Part shown: piece after piece, positions 11,229 through 16,946 of the stretch
Numbering within the stretch: position 1 is the first letter of the stretch
Layout of the letters: each line of letters starts with the position of its first letter
DNA from: Methanobacteriota archaeon
GTDB taxonomy: Archaea > Thermoplasmatota > Poseidoniia > Poseidoniales > Poseidoniaceae
DNA: 33,870 nt
Reading direction: 5' to 3'
Assembly: GCA_018662825.1 (NCBI GenBank)
Contig: JABJFI010000073.1
Span: 1 to 33,870, forward strand
The notes under the pieces: model-generated
What the model saw: only the letters and a program-made list of their open reading frames with translations
What the model was told of the DNA's origin: nothing
Databases searched by the model: none
Position numbers and translations under genes: made by a program

Positions 11229-12722
11229 TTAAGAAAAGTGAATAAGTGCATTTCGAACAACCTCGATGATCAAATCAATCTCAGCAGAAGTAATTCCAAA
11301 ATGTGGAGTGAACCTCAAGGCATTTGAACCACCATGTATTACTCCAAGACCATGTTTACGGCACCATGTTTCAACTGCATCAAATCCAATAACAGGAAAT
11401 TTGTTTGGTTCCAACTCTGCACTCAGTAGCAGGCCTGTACCTTGAACTTGAGTAATCACTCCCGGCATTTCAATAGCGAGTTTCTCCAATTTGTCAACAA
11501 ATTCAATACCTCGAAGGCGTATGTTCTCGCGAAGTTCAGGGGTAATTTGGTCAAGTACTGTGCATGCAGTCTCCAAGGCTCGCGGATTTGTAGTCATGGT
11601 GTTTCCATAAATTCCTACTACATAGTGTTCCGATGCTCTTTGATTTAGACCAAGAACAGATAATGGATATTGACCTGCGTTTAGAGCTTTGGACCATGTC
11701 TCCAAATCGGGGCATTCTGCATCTTGGAAACCATCATAATCAATTATCGAAAGGCAACCTTGGCCACGAATACCGGCCTGAATGGAATCAACCAAAAGCA
11801 TCGAACCGTGTTCAAGAGTCAAACGCCGAGCAGCATCATAGAATTCTCGTTCAACACAGGAACCAGGGTTTCCTTCTCCTTGGACTGGCTCAATTGCCAT
11901 CAATTCGATAAAATATCCTTCATCGTCGGCTTTGGCAAAGGCCGCTTCAAGTGCATTTACGTCATTGGCAGGGACTAAAATTAAGTTATCTCGGTCTCTA
12001 AAAGTCGCAAGGTTTCGATCGTATGCAGGTTTACAGGAATGAGAAATTTGGGCTGGCCTGTCGGTTCTGCCATGAAATGCCTTTTCTATGGCCATGAGCT
12101 TGATTTCCTTTCCTTCATAACGACCTCCTGGGCCAGTTAATTTTCGCGCATTTACATCAGCAATACGCAGACTCACTGTGACGGATTCTGAACCACTATT
12201 CATGCAAATGAAACGAGTAAATGGGCAAGAGCCACGAGTATGTCCCAGTTCCTTCTGCAAACGACTTGCTAGGCGTTTATGGCTATATGACGGTGTCATG
12301 ACATTCGCCATCACCCAATTTTCAGACATGGAAGAGATTACTTTACTTGGGCCATGGCCGCTTCCAAGCATACCATATCCGCCATTGTCATGAAGGACTG
12401 CACCATGAGTGGTGATTATCCATGGGCCACGTGCAGCAAGAGCGACATAAGGATTGACTGTTGCCGGAGCATAAAAATTAATGAAATCAGATTGAAGTTT
12501 TTCCACCAATTCGGATTCTGGAAGTGACATCATAATCTCGCCAAATTCAAGTTCAAGGGTTTTACGCCGAGATATAGCTTCAGAAATAGCAGTTGCAAGG
12601 CTCGAATCGGAAGAGAGGAATTGTCGGATGACTTCATCTGGTAAACCAACCGTATCTCGATGTCCAGAGAGGTTTCGTATACTTTCAAGTTCGGCGAAAG
12701 CATCAGCAGCATGTTGAGGCAT
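11229..12722 (-). CDS. Class III PLP-dependent aminotransferase
   Basis: A roughly 497-residue fold-type I aminotransferase. Visible elements are NSGSESVTVSLRIAD (cofactor phosphate region), AFHGRTD, IEPVQGEG, the cofactor-ring aspartate in LLVDSIQAGIRG, and the Schiff-base lysine in WSKALNAGQYP. These fit the family of acetylornithine, 4-aminobutyrate and lysine epsilon-aminotransferases; the substrate cannot be assigned. The N-terminal about 90 residues precede the usual domain start and are helical. ATG 12722 is used; a TTG at 12740 would add six residues. It is divergent from the queuosine-type operon, and a TATA-like AATATATG (12781-12788) lies upstream. Confidence 0.85.
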   Translation of the reverse strand: MPQHAADAFAELESIRNLSGHRDTVGLPDEVIRQFLSSDSSLATAISEAISRRKTLELEFGEIMMSLPESELVEKLQSDFINFYAPATVNPYVALAARGPWIITTHGAVLHDNGGYGMLGSGHGPSKVISSMSENWVMANVMTPSYSHKRLASRLQKELGHTRGSCPFTRFICMNSGSESVTVSLRIADVNARKLTGPGGRYEGKEIKLMAIEKAFHGRTDRPAQISHSCKPAYDRNLATFRDRDNLILVPANDVNALEAAFAKADDEGYFIELMAIEPVQGEGNPGSCVEREFYDAARRLTLEHGSMLLVDSIQAGIRGQGCLSIIDYDGFQDAECPDLETWSKALNAGQYPLSVLGLNQRASEHYVVGIYGNTMTTNPRALETACTVLDQITPELRENIRLRGIEFVDKLEKLAIEMPGVITQVQGTGLLLSAELEPNKFPVIGFDAVETWCRKHGLGVIHGGSNALRFTPHFGITSAEIDLIIEVVRNALIHFS

Positions 12723-12780
12723 CAAATCAATGGCACTCAAGGGGTTCTTTGAACATTCGCTTCAGTTCTATTGAATTTTG

Positions 12781-12807: not shown

Positions 12808-12825
12808 GTAATACTCTAGTATTAC
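12808..12825. promoter_or_regulatory. Perfect 18-bp palindrome, candidate operator
   Basis: GTAATACT-CT-AGTATTAC has two perfect 8-bp arms around a 2-bp centre. It lies directly upstream of the TATA element of the ribbon-helix-helix/folE/que operon and between it and the divergent aminotransferase. Ribbon-helix-helix regulators bind such short palindromes as dimers of dimers, so autoregulation by the adjacent gene is a natural inference. Confidence 0.6.
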
Positions 12826-12835
12826 TCTGCGAATA

Positions 12836-12843
12836 TTTATATG
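12836..12843 (+). promoter_or_regulatory. TATA box of the RHH-folE-que operon
   Basis: TTTATATG, centred about 26 nt before ATG 12865. This is the standard archaeal TATA-to-start distance and implies a leaderless mRNA starting at or next to that ATG. Confidence 0.65.
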
Positions 12844-12864
12844 GAGTTGATTGAACGAACAATC

Positions 12865-13029
12865 ATGCCGAAAATATCTTTGGACATGCCAGCTGAACTA
12901 GTAGAAGACCTAAGGAAGCATGTTGGTGACCAACATAAATTTGTAAGTTTAGCAGATGCAGTGCGTACTGCCTGCCGTAAACTATTGGACCAACTGGATG
13001 AAATTGATGCAAGGCATGGGAGGCAGTGA
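12865..13029 (+). CDS. Ribbon-helix-helix (CopG-type) transcription regulator
   Basis: A 54-residue DNA-binding protein. MPKISLDMPAELVEDL is the N-terminal beta strand and first helix start of an RHH domain; SLADAVRTACRKLLDQL forms the second helix. The TATA box spacing selects ATG 12865; an in-frame ATG at 12841 would place the TATA box directly on the start codon and add eight residues before the strand. It is the first gene of an apparent five-gene operon and overlaps or abuts folE. The palindrome just upstream of the promoter is its likely target. It may sense a pterin, a deazaguanine or a metal, but the sequence does not say which. Confidence 0.82.
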   Translation: MPKISLDMPAELVEDLRKHVGDQHKFVSLADAVRTACRKLLDQLDEIDARHGRQ

Positions 13030-13034
13030 TTGAA

Positions 13035-13604
13035 ATGGTAACGCAACTAGAAGCAGAAAACGCAGTCAAAACTTTGCTTGAGTATCTTGAAGGAGATGCG
13101 CAAAGGGAGGGTTTGGAAAAGACACCGCAACGTGTAATAGAATCTTGGAATGAAATTTTCTCAGGATACTCATCAAACTCTGAAGAACTTCTTCAATCGA
13201 CGTTCAATGGAGAGGGTTATGATGGAATTGTTCTACTCAGAGATATTGAGTTTCATTCGACATGCGAACACCACCTGCAACCGTTCAGTGGCAGGGCGCA
13301 CATTGCATATATTCCAGTCGACAGAATAGTTGGAATCAGTAAATTAGCACGTATTGTTGATGCACATGCGCACCGATTGCAAAATCAAGAGCGCATAACC
13401 AAGGGTATTGCTGATGACCTTGAGAAGCATTTGAATCCACTTGGTGCTGCAGTAATTCTTGAAGCATCACACGGGTGCATGCGTTGTCGAGGCGTGCGCA
13501 AACAGAATTCTGTGATGACAACTTCAGCAATGCGTGGAGTGTTTTTCGATAAAGCAGAACCACGACAAGAATTGATGCAACTCATTCAATCAAGACCACT
13601 TTGA
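13035..13604 (+). CDS. folE: GTP cyclohydrolase I
   Basis: Converts GTP to 7,8-dihydroneopterin triphosphate, the entry step to preQ0 and pterins. The 189-residue product has the zinc ligands C77 and H80 in STCEHHLQPF and C148 in HGCMRCRG, and the typical segments VDRIVGISKLARIVDAHAHRLQNQERIT and RKQNSVMTTSAMRG split over residues 95-167. This is the canonical FolE1 type, not the archaeal MptA/FolE2 type. ATG 13035 follows GGGAGG at 13018-13023; GTG 13026 overlaps the regulator stop. Position at the head of queE, queC and queD indicates a role in deazaguanine synthesis. Confidence 0.93.
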   Translation: MVTQLEAENAVKTLLEYLEGDAQREGLEKTPQRVIESWNEIFSGYSSNSEELLQSTFNGEGYDGIVLLRDIEFHSTCEHHLQPFSGRAHIAYIPVDRIVGISKLARIVDAHAHRLQNQERITKGIADDLEKHLNPLGAAVILEASHGCMRCRGVRKQNSVMTTSAMRGVFFDKAEPRQELMQLIQSRPL

Positions 13605-13613
13605 GGTATTTTC

Positions 13614-14273
13614 ATGAATGAAGAATCATGTGAAATTTCGGGCCCCGAGCCTGTTGATTCTGCAACAGATTTAGGTGCGGTCTACAATATTGTAGAAATT
13701 TTCCATTCGGTTCAAGGCGAGGGTTTTCACGCAGGTATACCTCATGTATTCATTCGTTTCGGAAAATGTAATCTGCAATGTGAATGGTGTGATACTGATT
13801 TCGAAAAATTCGATGAAATGGCAGCCGTTGACATCCTCGGAGAAGTGATGAAATATCCAACTAAGAGAATCATTTTCACTGGTGGCGAGCCGATGTTAAA
13901 TGACTTATGGCCACTACATAGATTATTCAAATCAAGAGGGTATCAACTTTCATGTGAATCAAATGGAACCATCGAGATTCCTGAGGGGTTATTGGACTGG
14001 GTTTGTATCTCGCCTAAAGACCAAATGTATCCTCAAGTAAAAATTCGACAGCGAAGCGGAGACGAATTGAAATGTGTCTATGTGGGTCAAGAACTATCTC
14101 TATATGCGGACTTAATGGATGGGTTTACTCATCACTTTTTGCAGCCATGCTATATGGACGCGGAGAGCGTAGAATGGAATGGAAATAACTTCGCCTTGAC
14201 TGAAGCGATTGTCAAAACTTCTCCACCGTGGAGATTGAGTCTGCAAACGCATAAATGGATGGGTGTTGATTGA
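13614..14273 (+). CDS. queE: 7-carboxy-7-deazaguanine synthase
   Basis: Radical SAM enzyme that contracts 6-carboxytetrahydropterin to 7-carboxy-7-deazaguanine. The Fe-S cluster motif is C52-x3-C56-x2-C59 (CNLQCEWCD), and FHSVQGEGFHAG just before it is the standard QueE N-terminal signature. FTGGEPMLN and ESNGT follow as SAM-binding segments. The 219-residue length is normal. The folE stop and TGAGGT overlap its ribosome binding region, and its own stop overlaps ATG of queC by one base, showing a tightly coupled operon. QueE itself looks intact, which matters because the next protein is altered. Confidence 0.95.
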   Translation: MNEESCEISGPEPVDSATDLGAVYNIVEIFHSVQGEGFHAGIPHVFIRFGKCNLQCEWCDTDFEKFDEMAAVDILGEVMKYPTKRIIFTGGEPMLNDLWPLHRLFKSRGYQLSCESNGTIEIPEGLLDWVCISPKDQMYPQVKIRQRSGDELKCVYVGQELSLYADLMDGFTHHFLQPCYMDAESVEWNGNNFALTEAIVKTSPPWRLSLQTHKWMGVD

Positions 14274-15424
14274 TGAAGCGAGCAGTCATGGCACTCTCCG
14301 GTGGAATGGATTCTACCGCACTCTTGATGCGACTTTTAGATGCGGGATATACCGTCGATTGTCTATCATATAATTATGGGCAAAAGCACAGTATTGAACT
14401 TGAACGTGCAAAAGCGAACATACTATATTTGTTGGAAAACAACATCAAAATAGAGCATAAAATTATTGATTTGTCAAGTGCAATGGGCGTGTTTGAAAGT
14501 TCTTTGATCGAAGGCGGAGAAGATGTGCCAGAGGGTCACTATGAAGCCGAACAAATGAAATCAACAGTCGTGCCAAACCGTAATGCAATATTTGCATCTA
14601 TTTTGTATGGATATGCACTTTCTATTGCAACACGTGAATCAGTAAAGGTTGAAATCGCTCTCGGCGTTCATTCTGGTGACCACGAAATATATCCTGACTG
14701 CCGTCCTGAATTTTATCACGCCCTTGAACACGCTTTTGCAGTTGGTAATTGGGAGAGTGAAAATGTTTCATTTACATTACCCTATTTAGATGGTGATAAG
14801 GCAACTATTCTACAAGATGCTCAAAAAGCAATATCAAGTCTGAATCTTGATTTTGATACAATTTTCGCTAATACAAATACATCCTACAATCCCGATGAAC
14901 ATGGCCGTAGTTCGGGAAGAAGTGGCGCGGATATTGAGCGGATTCTGGCGTTCAATAGCCTAGGCATTGAAGACCCAGTAGAATACCAAACATCTTGGGA
15001 GGATGTGCTACAAAACGCACTGTCAATTGAGAGAAAATTCAATGATGACGACTATCGGAAACGGCTTTCAGAAGAACAATATTTTGTTACTCGCCAAAGT
15101 GGAACTGAACCTGCATTCACCGGAATATATTGCGATGAAAAAAGGAATGGGGAATATTTTTGCATCTGTTGCAATCACCTGTTGTTCACCTCATCCATGA
15201 AATTCGATTCAGGGTGTGGCTGGCCTTCATTCCATACCGAGCACCGAGATGCTGGCATAAGGCATATTGATGATGATAGCCATGGAATGCATCGGATTGA
15301 AGTGAGGTGTTCAAAATGTGATGCGCATTTAGGGCATATATTCGAAGACGGCCCCAAGGCATTTGGCGGCCAACGATATTGCATTAATTCCGCTGCATTA
15401 GAATTTGAGGAGAGAGAAATATGA
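14273..15424 (+). CDS. queC: QueC-like domain fused to methionine-R-sulfoxide reductase (MsrB)
   Basis: A 383-residue two-domain protein. Residues 1-240 are QueC-like, the ATP-dependent enzyme that makes preQ0 from 7-carboxy-7-deazaguanine: PP-loop SGGMDS (9-14), YNYGQKHS, VPNRNA and LGVHSGDHEIYPDCR. QueC normally ends with a zinc knuckle CxxxxCGKCxxC. Here the aligned residues are S204, S214, S217 and D220 (TSYN...HGRSSGRSGAD), so all four cysteines are gone while neighbouring residues are kept. Residues about 256-380 are MsrB: CICC (C297, C300) and CSKC (C346, C349) for zinc, recycling C315 in SGCGWPSF, and catalytic C370 in RYCINS. No stop or frameshift separates the domains. It overlaps queD by 4 nt. 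Confidence 0.9.
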   Translation: MKRAVMALSGGMDSTALLMRLLDAGYTVDCLSYNYGQKHSIELERAKANILYLLENNIKIEHKIIDLSSAMGVFESSLIEGGEDVPEGHYEAEQMKSTVVPNRNAIFASILYGYALSIATRESVKVEIALGVHSGDHEIYPDCRPEFYHALEHAFAVGNWESENVSFTLPYLDGDKATILQDAQKAISSLNLDFDTIFANTNTSYNPDEHGRSSGRSGADIERILAFNSLGIEDPVEYQTSWEDVLQNALSIERKFNDDDYRKRLSEEQYFVTRQSGTEPAFTGIYCDEKRNGEYFCICCNHLLFTSSMKFDSGCGWPSFHTEHRDAGIRHIDDDSHGMHRIEVRCSKCDAHLGHIFEDGPKAFGGQRYCINSAALEFEEREI

Positions 15425-15870
15425 CCACAAGAATACGACGATTTGTAGAAACTGATACTGGGCATCGAGTTCCTAATCACAAAAGTAAATGTAGACATAT
15501 GCATGGCCATCGCTACCGCTTTGAGGCTGAAATTGAAGGAGATACTGTACAAAAGCCCGGAGTCAGTGAGGAGGGAATGCTGATGGATTTTTCTGATGTT
15601 AGCACTATTCTTATGACTTATGTCCATGATATTATCGACCATGCTTTTGTTGTCTATGAAGGAGATGAAGAGGCAAGAAAGGCTTGTGAATTTATGGGTG
15701 AACAACATCGAACTGTTGTTGTACCTTTCATTCCAACAGCAGAAAATCTTGCTAAATGGGCATTTGAACAAGTCGAACCGCACATTGTTACAACCTATGG
15801 AAATAGATTGAAATTAATCGCCATGCATGTAAGGGAAACTCCGAAGAGTACTGCATCATGGATTCCATGA
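15421..15870 (+). CDS. queD: 6-carboxytetrahydropterin synthase (QueD/PTPS family)
   Basis: Converts dihydroneopterin triphosphate to 6-carboxytetrahydropterin. The 149-residue product has zinc ligands H15, H28 and H30 and catalytic C24 in the CxxxHGH pattern (KCRHMHGHRYRF), the active-site stretch MLMDFSDV, DHAFVV, and the substrate-binding glutamate region PTAENLAKW. It is the last gene of the operon and overlaps the QueC-MsrB stop by 4 nt (ATGA). With folE, queE and the QueC-like gene it completes the GTP-to-preQ0 gene set. Confidence 0.93.
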   Translation: MTTRIRRFVETDTGHRVPNHKSKCRHMHGHRYRFEAEIEGDTVQKPGVSEEGMLMDFSDVSTILMTYVHDIIDHAFVVYEGDEEARKACEFMGEQHRTVVVPFIPTAENLAKWAFEQVEPHIVTTYGNRLKLIAMHVRETPKSTASWIP

Positions 15871-16710
15871 TTACTCTTCTTCTACAGGCGTAATTTTACG
15901 GCGCCTCTGGCTCTTCCATTCACTATTGCCTGATACATACTGCAGAGCTGTAGTGGCATCAAGAATGCCCCCAATGAGGCGTGTTGCTTCATCTTCAGTT
16001 GGCATTGAACGCATTATTCCACGCCGCAAATTGTGAGAAAAACTTTCCCGTCTCTCATCATTTCCAGGTAAAGCCTGACCCATTTCTATAATGCCTTGGT
16101 GAAGTATTCCCTTCAATGTAGGATTGATACTACGTTCGAGCGGAACAATATCGGGCATTCCTGGGTCGTTTCCTTGACTGGATTGAACGATTGAACGATG
16201 TAATTCGTATACACAGGCATTCACTGCATGAGAAAGATTGGCAATCGGATACCCTTCCCATGTCGGTAATGTCACTAGAAAATCACAAAATCCGAGTGAT
16301 TCGGTAGACAGCCCCTTGCCCTCTTCACCAAATACAAGGGAAACAGAATCTGTGAAACCTTTCAATCGCTCAGTCATCTCCCAAGGGTACATGAAGTGAC
16401 GAAAGGTTGTCTTTGCACCAATCTCGCGTTTACCAGATGTGCCAATAGTAAGACTGCAATCTGCTGTTGCTTGTTCGAGTGATTCAAAAACCTCACACTT
16501 ATCGAGAATTCTTCCCGCATGTTTGGCCCGATTACGAGCTTCGATATCATCTGGTGAGCATGTTGGGGAAACAAGCCGCAAGGAGTCAAAACCATAATTC
16601 AGCATACTTCTACATACAGCCCCAAGGTTACCTGGGTGCGATGCCCCGACGAGTATGATGTGCAGATTGTATCCTCGATGCGGAAGTGGTACTCCTTGCC
16701 TATCTCCCAT
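15871..16710 (-). CDS. SPOUT-class RNA 2'-O-methyltransferase (TrmH/TrmJ-like)
   Basis: A 279-residue knotted methyltransferase. Motif 1 is SHPGNLGAVCRSMLNYGFD, motif 2 FGEEGKGLS and motif 3 LPTWEGYPIANLSHAV, which closest resembles TrmJ-type enzymes methylating tRNA position 32. The C-terminal 100 residues are helical with a basic end (SQRRRKIT). Three consecutive ATG codons at 16716, 16713 and 16710 follow GAGGAGG; the third gives the best spacing. It is last in the minus-strand ribosomal cluster and converges with queD with no gap. The exact tRNA or rRNA target is not shown by sequence. Confidence 0.88.
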   Translation of the reverse strand: MGDRQGVPLPHRGYNLHIILVGASHPGNLGAVCRSMLNYGFDSLRLVSPTCSPDDIEARNRAKHAGRILDKCEVFESLEQATADCSLTIGTSGKREIGAKTTFRHFMYPWEMTERLKGFTDSVSLVFGEEGKGLSTESLGFCDFLVTLPTWEGYPIANLSHAVNACVYELHRSIVQSSQGNDPGMPDIVPLERSINPTLKGILHQGIIEMGQALPGNDERRESFSHNLRRGIMRSMPTEDEATRLIGGILDATTALQYVSGNSEWKSQRRRKITPVEEE

Positions 16711-16712
16711 CA

Positions 16713-16946
16713 TCATTCCTCCTCACTTTCAGGTGAAACTAATTCTTCACATTCTAAAATCCAGCGAGGGTTACATGGTTGGTAAAGAAAAAAAAGGTGT
16801 CCACCTTCTTCACGGTCAACCATTACAAGTGAACGTTTTCGGATTCCAAATTTATTTCGGAGTTGAAGAATAAGTTCCTCAAGTATTTCTTTTGACTGGT
16901 GATGAACTGATACAGGGGTGCGGTCCCAATTGACACGCACAGGCAC
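16713..16946 (-). CDS. Conserved-looking 77-aa protein of unknown function
   Basis: Starts at GTG 16946 (GTG CCT GTG CGT), 7 nt after GAGGCGAT, in a frame closed by a stop just upstream. It begins MPVRVNWDRTPVSVHHQS, has a central helix and the strands SLVMVDREEGGHLFFLYQP, and ends in an acidic tail. No family is recognised. Its stop codon overlaps the first ATG of the methyltransferase and it sits 13 nt after eS17, so it is translated within the ribosomal operon. A ribosome- or RNA-linked role is inference from position only. Confidence 0.65.
   Translation of the reverse strand: MPVRVNWDRTPVSVHHQSKEILEELILQLRNKFGIRKRSLVMVDREEGGHLFFLYQPCNPRWILECEELVSPESEEE

Follow-up and report, generated by a model that had tools for sequence, protein, structure and literature searches.

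QueC converts a carboxylic acid to a nitrile in the synthesis of preQ0, and the role of its zinc is unsettled. As set out in the part of a 2026 family study that deals with it, the canonical QueC signature comprises the motifs SGGxDS, YxQxHxxE, VPxRN and YPDC, an essential tyrosine in the zinc region and the zinc motif C(x)8CxxCxxC (PMC13329287). The archaeal pathway begins with MptA, and its final archaeosine step uses ArcS in Euryarchaeota, according to the relevant section of an earlier account (PMC5485725). Since archaea start with MptA, the bacterial-type FolE encoded in the DNA described here is unusual. The window, a stretch of 33,870 nt, is contig C82 of the genome of a member of the archaeal order Poseidoniales (1.96 Mb in 123 contigs); at positions 12808-15870 it carries one compact operon formed by a small ribbon-helix-helix (RHH)-like gene, folE, queE, a queC-msrB fusion and queD, with overlaps of 1-4 nt or gaps of 5-9 nt. 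The original prediction had described this packing, the full gene set leading from GTP to preQ0, a leading regulator with an operator-like palindrome and the fusion, and the analysis bears it out: all five open reading frames (ORFs) are present, the FolE, QueE, QueC and QueD families were matched, a regulator-like gene and a conserved box array stand at the head, and both domains of the fusion, which recurs in many genomes, lie in one ORF. Absent from that prediction were the loss of the zinc cysteines in QueC, the viral kinship of this enzyme and a virus-type QueD at other loci of the order. The purpose of the operon is ordinary, preQ0 for archaeosine; its make-up is unusual: the QueC is zinc-free and of virus type, fusion to MsrB recurs, and a minimal regulator is paired with an array of boxes.

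The loss of the zinc site was uniform. Among 118 distinct cellular QueC sequences (at least 225 residues, near-complete starts, no more than two X), each of the four motifs SGGxDS, YxQxHxxE, VPxRN and YPDC was present in all 118, and C(x)8CxxCxxC in none. The former zinc loop has instead the motif SYxPDxxG[RKL]xxGxxGxDxER, conserved in 112 of the 118. Its tyrosine Tyr206, invariant in 29 rows, aligns with the zinc-region tyrosine (Y189 of E. coli) and stands in an SY.P context in 117 sequences, the remaining one having CY; Met13 of the P-loop is invariant in all 118. An AlphaFold2 model of QueC-MsrB reached a mean predicted local distance difference test (pLDDT) score of 90.5 and matched the QueC structures 3BL5 and 2PG3 and the MsrB structure 6SYM in Foldseek. 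Where the QueC sequence model scored well in the order, its values were about 1e-37 to 1e-43, while most other genomes of the phylum reached 1e-61 or better. Judged from its sequence, the Poseidoniales protein is a zinc-free homologue that probably works like QueC, not a canonical QueC; no report of such a protein in Poseidoniales was found among open-licence papers.

The repurposed relatives QatC and Cap9 retain the four cysteines, as stated in the portions of the literature that treat them (PMC13329287; for QatC also PMC13279940); the zinc-free QueC is therefore a different departure. A defence system was considered and dropped, as PADLOC gave only weak matches on the seven operon and flanking proteins, to QueC (48 bits) and viperin (32 bits), and none to Cap9 or QatC partner genes. 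Replacement of the QueC zinc by that of MsrB was dropped in view of the operons that have the same zinc-free QueC and no MsrB. The idea that zinc loss signals ADG production was also rejected: the Campylobacter phage CP21, from a group reported with dADG, has the cysteines, and thus ADG does not go with zinc loss.

The nearest relatives found of the Poseidoniales QueC were zinc-free QueCs of marine viruses. In the best 80 of at least 579 viral contigs, QueC was 47-65% identical to that of the source genome and lacked the cysteines in 79, L184 being the one that has them; a second viral set comprised the best 80 of at least 600 and a third all 57, part of which entered the second of two trees. 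In both trees, built on chosen subsets of QueCs (the second without L275), the archaeal sequences and two from Marine Group III formed one clade (support 99/92 and 100/95), nested in an otherwise viral zinc-free clade (100/95 and 99/93) that includes the cultured Flavobacterium phage immuto (L252); the zinc-bearing viral L184 stood next outside (100/100 in both). All ten QueCs retrieved from elsewhere in the phylum and two plasmid QueCs had the zinc cysteines and fell outside the zinc-free clade, nine of the ten phylum sequences being in the second tree. In alignments covering at least 60% of the protein, the viral contigs were 47-65% identical to the host in QueC, 31-51% in FolE, 27-36% in QueE and 21-30% in QueD. 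As identity is high in QueC alone, QueC moved on its own. Against this, four viral contigs were 59-63% identical to the host QueE, although over 27 residues only. We infer the direction of transfer as being from virus to archaea: an ancestor of the order most probably took up the zinc-free QueC from a virus.

One of these viral contigs, L174, whose QueC is 64% identical, encodes FolE, QueE, QueC, QueD and a clamp-loader-like AAA gene. It also gave a sub-threshold DpdA match (17 bits, cut-off 27), and two further ORFs, which match no Pfam family, we take to be DpdA-like from their motif. Marine viruses frequently carry preQ0 genes, and in tested phages these genes are used for DNA modification, as reported in the sections concerned of two studies (PMC9301287; PMC6884629). 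The kinship suggests an exchange of a core tRNA-modification enzyme with viruses that seem to apply this chemistry to their DNA. A second exchange is visible at 14 cellular loci with a virus-type QueD. At nine of them (L064, L065, L118, L122, L124, L130, L139, L146 and L169) it occupies the queD position of the operon and is 64-70% identical to the L174 QueD; at the other five (L033-L035, L055 and L158) identity is about 40-44%. The zinc cysteines have been lost outside the main clade as well, in the Dinoroseobacter phage vB_DshS-R5C (L260:1992-2840) and the distant viral L323 and L324, apparently independently. For Roseophage R26L, related to R5C, the published passages on it list genes and give no preQ0 measurement.

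The cellular relatives, drawn from genome_contigs, were the best 80 of at least 540, and among them the named ones were nearly all Poseidoniales (Marine Group II) records. The original prediction had called for conservation to be looked at in relatives: gene order was kept in both families of the order, and the RHH-like gene was present at 75 of the 80 loci, the other five having less than about 1.3 kb upstream of queC. In genome G305 this gene lay about 2.5 kb from queC, versus the usual distance of about 1.2 kb. Of the 170 genomes of the family, 148 yielded either the fusion protein or its QueC portion. Two Marine Group III records, L055 (genome G313) and L158 (single cell AG-343-J07), have a QueC inside the Poseidoniales clade together with FolE, QueE and RHH-like genes, probably as a result of transfer between archaeal groups; in L158 one cysteine has been regained (TCY). 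The two Poseidoniales families were interleaved in the QueC trees, L050 pairing with L054 for example, which suggests exchange of queC or of the operon within the order.

At the head of the operon, the palindrome GTAATACT-CT-AGTATTAC at 12808-12825 belongs to an array of three boxes with an 11-nt period (Table 1). Boxes of the form [TG]AWTA[CT] at exactly this spacing occurred as a pair in 91 of 108 upstream regions (distinct, at least 60 nt long, few N) and as three in a row in 60; mononucleotide shuffles, which kept base content only, gave 0.3% pairs and no triples. The exact two-box pattern was found once in the source genome. Read with the archaeal TATA spacing (a sigma-70 scan is of little value for an archaeal host), the position of the TATA-like element suggests a leaderless transcript, and because the third box overlaps this element, repression of such a transcript by promoter occlusion is suggested. 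The array provides a first candidate for a protein-based regulation of preQ0 synthesis in archaea.

The first gene encodes a protein of 54 residues which, from its sequence pattern, we take to be of the RHH type. It was modelled as an extended start followed by two helices with a modest pLDDT of 76. Across the aligned loci the protein was 65-100% identical to that of the source, its mean column identity was 82% versus 62% for QueC-MsrB, and Cys37 did not vary in either of two alignments (28 of 28 and 39 of 39 sequences); a redox role for this residue is speculation. When 292 genomes of the phylum were searched, the gene appeared once each in 71 of the 81 genomes of the order and in one Marine Group III genome that has the operon too; one further genome gave a marginal match. 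In those 81 genomes it accompanied a strong QueC in 71, QueC stood without it in two, it never stood without QueC, and eight had neither (Fisher 1.4e-9, a value inflated by adjacency and kinship). The protein is probably a dedicated autoregulator of the preQ0 operon; among open-licence papers we found no report of an RHH regulator of preQ0 genes.

Redox repair tied into the preQ0 pathway was a further claim of the original prediction, and only part of it stood: the fusion is real, whereas the tie to the pathway is weak, this being the sole MsrB found in the genome and one that tends to go missing along with MsrA. In the profile search a single ORF held a QueC match (142 bits) and a SelR match (160 bits), and an assembly artefact was dropped as an explanation, since the fusion occurs in many genomes. 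The MsrB domain, 54% identical to 6SYM, carries its zinc cysteines at positions 298, 301, 347 and 350. The genome counts for MsrB, MsrA, TGT, RaSEA and YhhQ rest on 80 genomes chosen by hand, by completeness and including all those known to be without queC, and hence not random; 59 of them have MsrB, in one copy each. A scripted count placed it at queC in 52 order genomes out of 56; it was away from queC in G342 and G004 (queC on C22, msrB on C11), and G292 and G135 were not placeable. Among 143 loci, 93 were fused, 28 had the genes adjacent, 19 were without MsrB and three were undecided. On a tree of distinct QueCs, which left out partial sequences and gave three loci no state, the fused state changed 13 times or more, and the presence of MsrB seven times or more, counted without direction. 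MsrA, encoded at other loci, and MsrB were both present in 48 of 75 order genomes, one only in eight and eight, and neither in 11 (Fisher p 0.0004, uncorrected for kinship). With no second MsrB found in the genome and a tendency to disappear together with MsrA, the best reading is that this domain is a general methionine-R-sulfoxide reductase sharing the operon, which is likelier than a preQ0-specific role. Marine Group II archaea meet oxidative stress in surface water, as described in a report whose pertinent part leaves Msr unmentioned (PMC10783094), and this may bear on the presence of MsrB.

A fusion of this kind may have been seen before under another name. An archaeal 'AANH-MSRB' fusion (UniProt A0A2D6JNB0) is presented in the corresponding passage of a 2018 review as ThiI-like, acting on an adenylated substrate X of unknown nature (PMC6211008). 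Its cysteines 162, 334 and 389, compared by these named positions only, stand at a constant offset of 18 from residues 144, 316 and 371 of the source protein, and the same spacing was present in 65 of 97 fused homologues measured. It differs as described there in being ThiI-like with a substrate X, where the protein studied here is a QueC. As the source protein is a QueC, X should be 7-carboxy-7-deazaguanine (CDG) if AANH-MSRB is QueC-MsrB, and CDG would thus be a concrete substrate for a fusion protein whose adenylated substrate the review left open. Under the name QueC-MsrB, no report of the fusion was found among open-licence papers.

The end use of preQ0 had been left open by the original prediction, which asked for users elsewhere in the genome; these were found, and archaeosine is by far the likeliest product. 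The source genome encodes arcTGT (TIGR00432, 431 bits, cut-off 350), an ArcS homologue (NF040592, 220 bits, under the cut-off of 440) and RaSEA (TIGR01210, 289 bits, cut-off 212). Given these three and the use of ArcS by Euryarchaeota, archaeosine is the expected product, and preQ0 most likely ends as archaeosine in tRNA. Of the 80 chosen genomes, 77 had TGT and 75 had RaSEA. Searched with PF01702, the source genome gave only the arcTGT and ArcS matches, the DpdA model itself not having been run on it. A YhhQ-type preQ0 transporter was detected in a Marine Group III genome, whereas all 75 order genomes searched gave none; in the order, preQ0 must therefore be made or enter by another route. 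What weighs against a strict link between operon and archaeosine is that eight of 81 order genomes have no strong QueC and all eight (G129, G295, G298, G310, G063, G075, G135 and G403) keep TGT, RaSEA also persisting without queC. In such genomes archaeosine may come without the operon, through preQ0 salvage by an importer, or queC may lie on missing contigs.

These retained enzymes are one of the points that would suit a zinc-free QueC that no longer makes preQ0, stopping at the amide ADG or attaching CDG to protein like Cap9, with archaeosine derived from imported preQ0. The swap of the entire zinc loop for a new conserved motif would suit it too, as would the prediction, in the section of the family study concerned, that preQ0 synthesis is lost where the signature is altered (PMC13329287). 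We nevertheless regard it as quite improbable: the remaining signature motifs and the essential tyrosine are retained, queC sits with a complete pathway in an order where YhhQ was not found among 75 genomes, PADLOC found no Cap9 or QatC partner genes among the seven proteins, Cap9 and QatC themselves have the four cysteines, and so does the Campylobacter phage of the dADG group. Synthesis of preQ0 by the zinc-free QueC being preferred, the question of its control can be put in the same way. The 54-residue protein could be something other than the operon repressor, for instance an antitoxin-like or global regulator standing there by chance. It matched no Pfam, NCBIfam, PHROG or PADLOC family and no PDB sequence, so that the RHH fold is weakly supported, and in Foldseek its model gave a best E value of 4.4, two of the four weak matches being ParD antitoxin structures. 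Also counting against a dedicated autoregulator are the 17 of 108 upstream regions without an 11-nt pair and the two order genomes with queC and no detected RHH-like gene. With one mismatch allowed, the two-box pattern gave fewer genomic matches than the same pattern read backward as a control (12+8 versus 25+30), so that only the exact site counts. A chance neighbour is still highly improbable, as the gene keeps the same position across the order, is better conserved than QueC-MsrB, has one match per genome and bears at its own promoter an array whose exact two-box site is the only one in the source genome, and no toxin gene was seen next to it in the ORF list of the window.

As to the origin of QueC, the viruses might have obtained the zinc-free form from cells, either stem Poseidoniales or a lineage not yet seen, which we find somewhat unlikely. 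In an approximately unbiased (AU) test, whose groups were named after a first tree, a single clade of all zinc-free viral rows was rejected (p 0.0045), but the rejection was only borderline when all viral rows including L184 formed that clade (p 0.0504). Zinc-free cellular QueCs beyond the best 80 of at least 540 relatives examined could change the transfer story as well. Several viral lineages, among them the cultured Flavobacterium phage, nonetheless fall outside the archaeal clade, and the closest relative seen with zinc cysteines likewise comes from a virus; both points favour acquisition from a virus. A specific service of MsrB to the preQ0 pathway, for example the repair of QueC or QueE methionines, with fusion for that end, would account for the repeated changes of the fused state, for the invariant Met13 and for the position of msrB, which lies at queC in 52 or more of the 56 genomes. 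This explanation is unlikely, since no other MsrB was found in the genome, the domain tends to be present or absent together with MsrA, and some genera have complete operons without it; the general reductase is the reading we retain.

Together, these observations lead us to favour, with reasonable confidence, a dedicated preQ0 operon of Poseidoniales with a zinc-free virus-type QueC, an autorepressor, a general MsrB and archaeosine as end use. FolE, QueD, QueE and QueC would convert GTP to preQ0, the zinc-free QueC still turning CDG into preQ0, and arcTGT, ArcS and RaSEA, encoded elsewhere, would convert preQ0 to archaeosine in tRNA. The RHH-like protein would bind the boxes that recur every 11 nt across the promoter and silence no operon but its own, with a pathway or redox signal ending the repression. 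MsrB would act as the general methionine-R-sulfoxide reductase of the cell, co-transcribed with QueC and, in many lineages, fused to it. More tentatively, and at somewhat less than even odds, the order may have swapped the zinc QueC of the phylum for one captured from DNA-modifying viruses, making archaeosine with it under a minimal repressor that answers preQ0 supply or redox through the 11-nt array. If true, the preQ1 riboswitch of bacteria would have a protein equivalent here, and nature would have shown that nitrile synthesis by QueC can do without the zinc. With a natural zinc-free clade in which all other catalytic motifs are kept, the role of zinc in QueC becomes directly testable.

The gene calls are collected in Table 1. 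A reading of 62 residues for the RHH-like ORF would begin at ATG 12841; its start was placed at ATG 12865 because the former falls in the TATA-like stretch and the homologues start at the latter. FolE may start at GTG 13026, overlapping the RHH-like gene by 4 nt, or at the in-frame ATG 13035, leaving a gap of 5 nt, and 9 nt separate folE from queE. The fusion starts at ATG 14273 (alternatively TTG 14270) with a 1-nt overlap with queE, TGATG, and is itself overlapped by queD by 4 nt. The operon is flanked by two genes on the reverse strand, a class-III aminotransferase at 11229-12740 and a TrmJ-like SpoU methylase at 15871-16716, which ends one base past queD.

Table 1. Features of the preQ0 operon and its promoter region (positions within the window)
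Feature	Position	Strand	Description	Evidence
Operator-like array	12809-12836		Boxes TAATAC 12809-12814, TATTAC 12820-12825 and GAATAT 12831-12836; 11-nt period	
TATA-like element	12836-12842	+	Overlaps third box; centre about 26 nt before ATG 12865	Sequence
RHH-like gene	12865-13029	+	Small putative repressor, 54 residues, invariant Cys37	
folE	13026-13604	+	GTP cyclohydrolase I	PF01227, 227 bits; TIGR00063 above cut-off
queE	13614-14273	+	7-carboxy-7-deazaguanine synthase, radical SAM	PF04055 above cut-off; TIGR04508, 133 bits, under cut-off 240
queC-msrB	14273-15424	+	Fusion	QueC domain about residues 1-255; SelR/MsrB residues 266-380
Former zinc loop of QueC	14879-14941	+	Residues 204-224, TSYNPDEHGRSSGRSGADIER, four Cys replaced	Alignments
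MsrB domain	15065-15409	+	Zinc type; catalytic Cys371, resolving Cys316	PF01641, 164 bits, sole match in genome
queD	15421-15870	+	6-carboxytetrahydropterin synthase, host type	PF01242 (PTPS), 92 bits, above cut-off; TIGR03367, 81 bits, under cut-off 89

In comparison with known systems, the Poseidoniales protein shares with canonical QueC (PF06508 cluster 1; 3BL5 and 2PG3) the fold, the four motifs, the tyrosine of the zinc loop and the operon partners, and differs from it in a loop one residue longer, in the missing cysteine motif and, in many cases, in a C-terminal MsrB. GAT-QueC, Cap9 and QatC are likewise remodelled or fused QueC proteins, as described in the parts of the literature devoted to them (PMC6884629; PMC13279940; PMC5485725), whereas the Poseidoniales QueC comes without an amidotransferase domain or partner protein genes, and Cap9 and QatC keep the cysteines. 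The zinc-free QueCs of marine viruses such as L174 and immuto belong to the same clade and show the same cysteine loss; at least some viral loci combine a full preQ0 set with DpdA-like or TGT-like genes, and no RHH-like gene or MsrB was seen there, unlike at the archaeal locus. With the bacterial preQ1 riboswitches, finally, the operon would share the logic of feedback control over 7-deazaguanine genes, in Poseidoniales by means of a candidate protein repressor and an array of DNA boxes.

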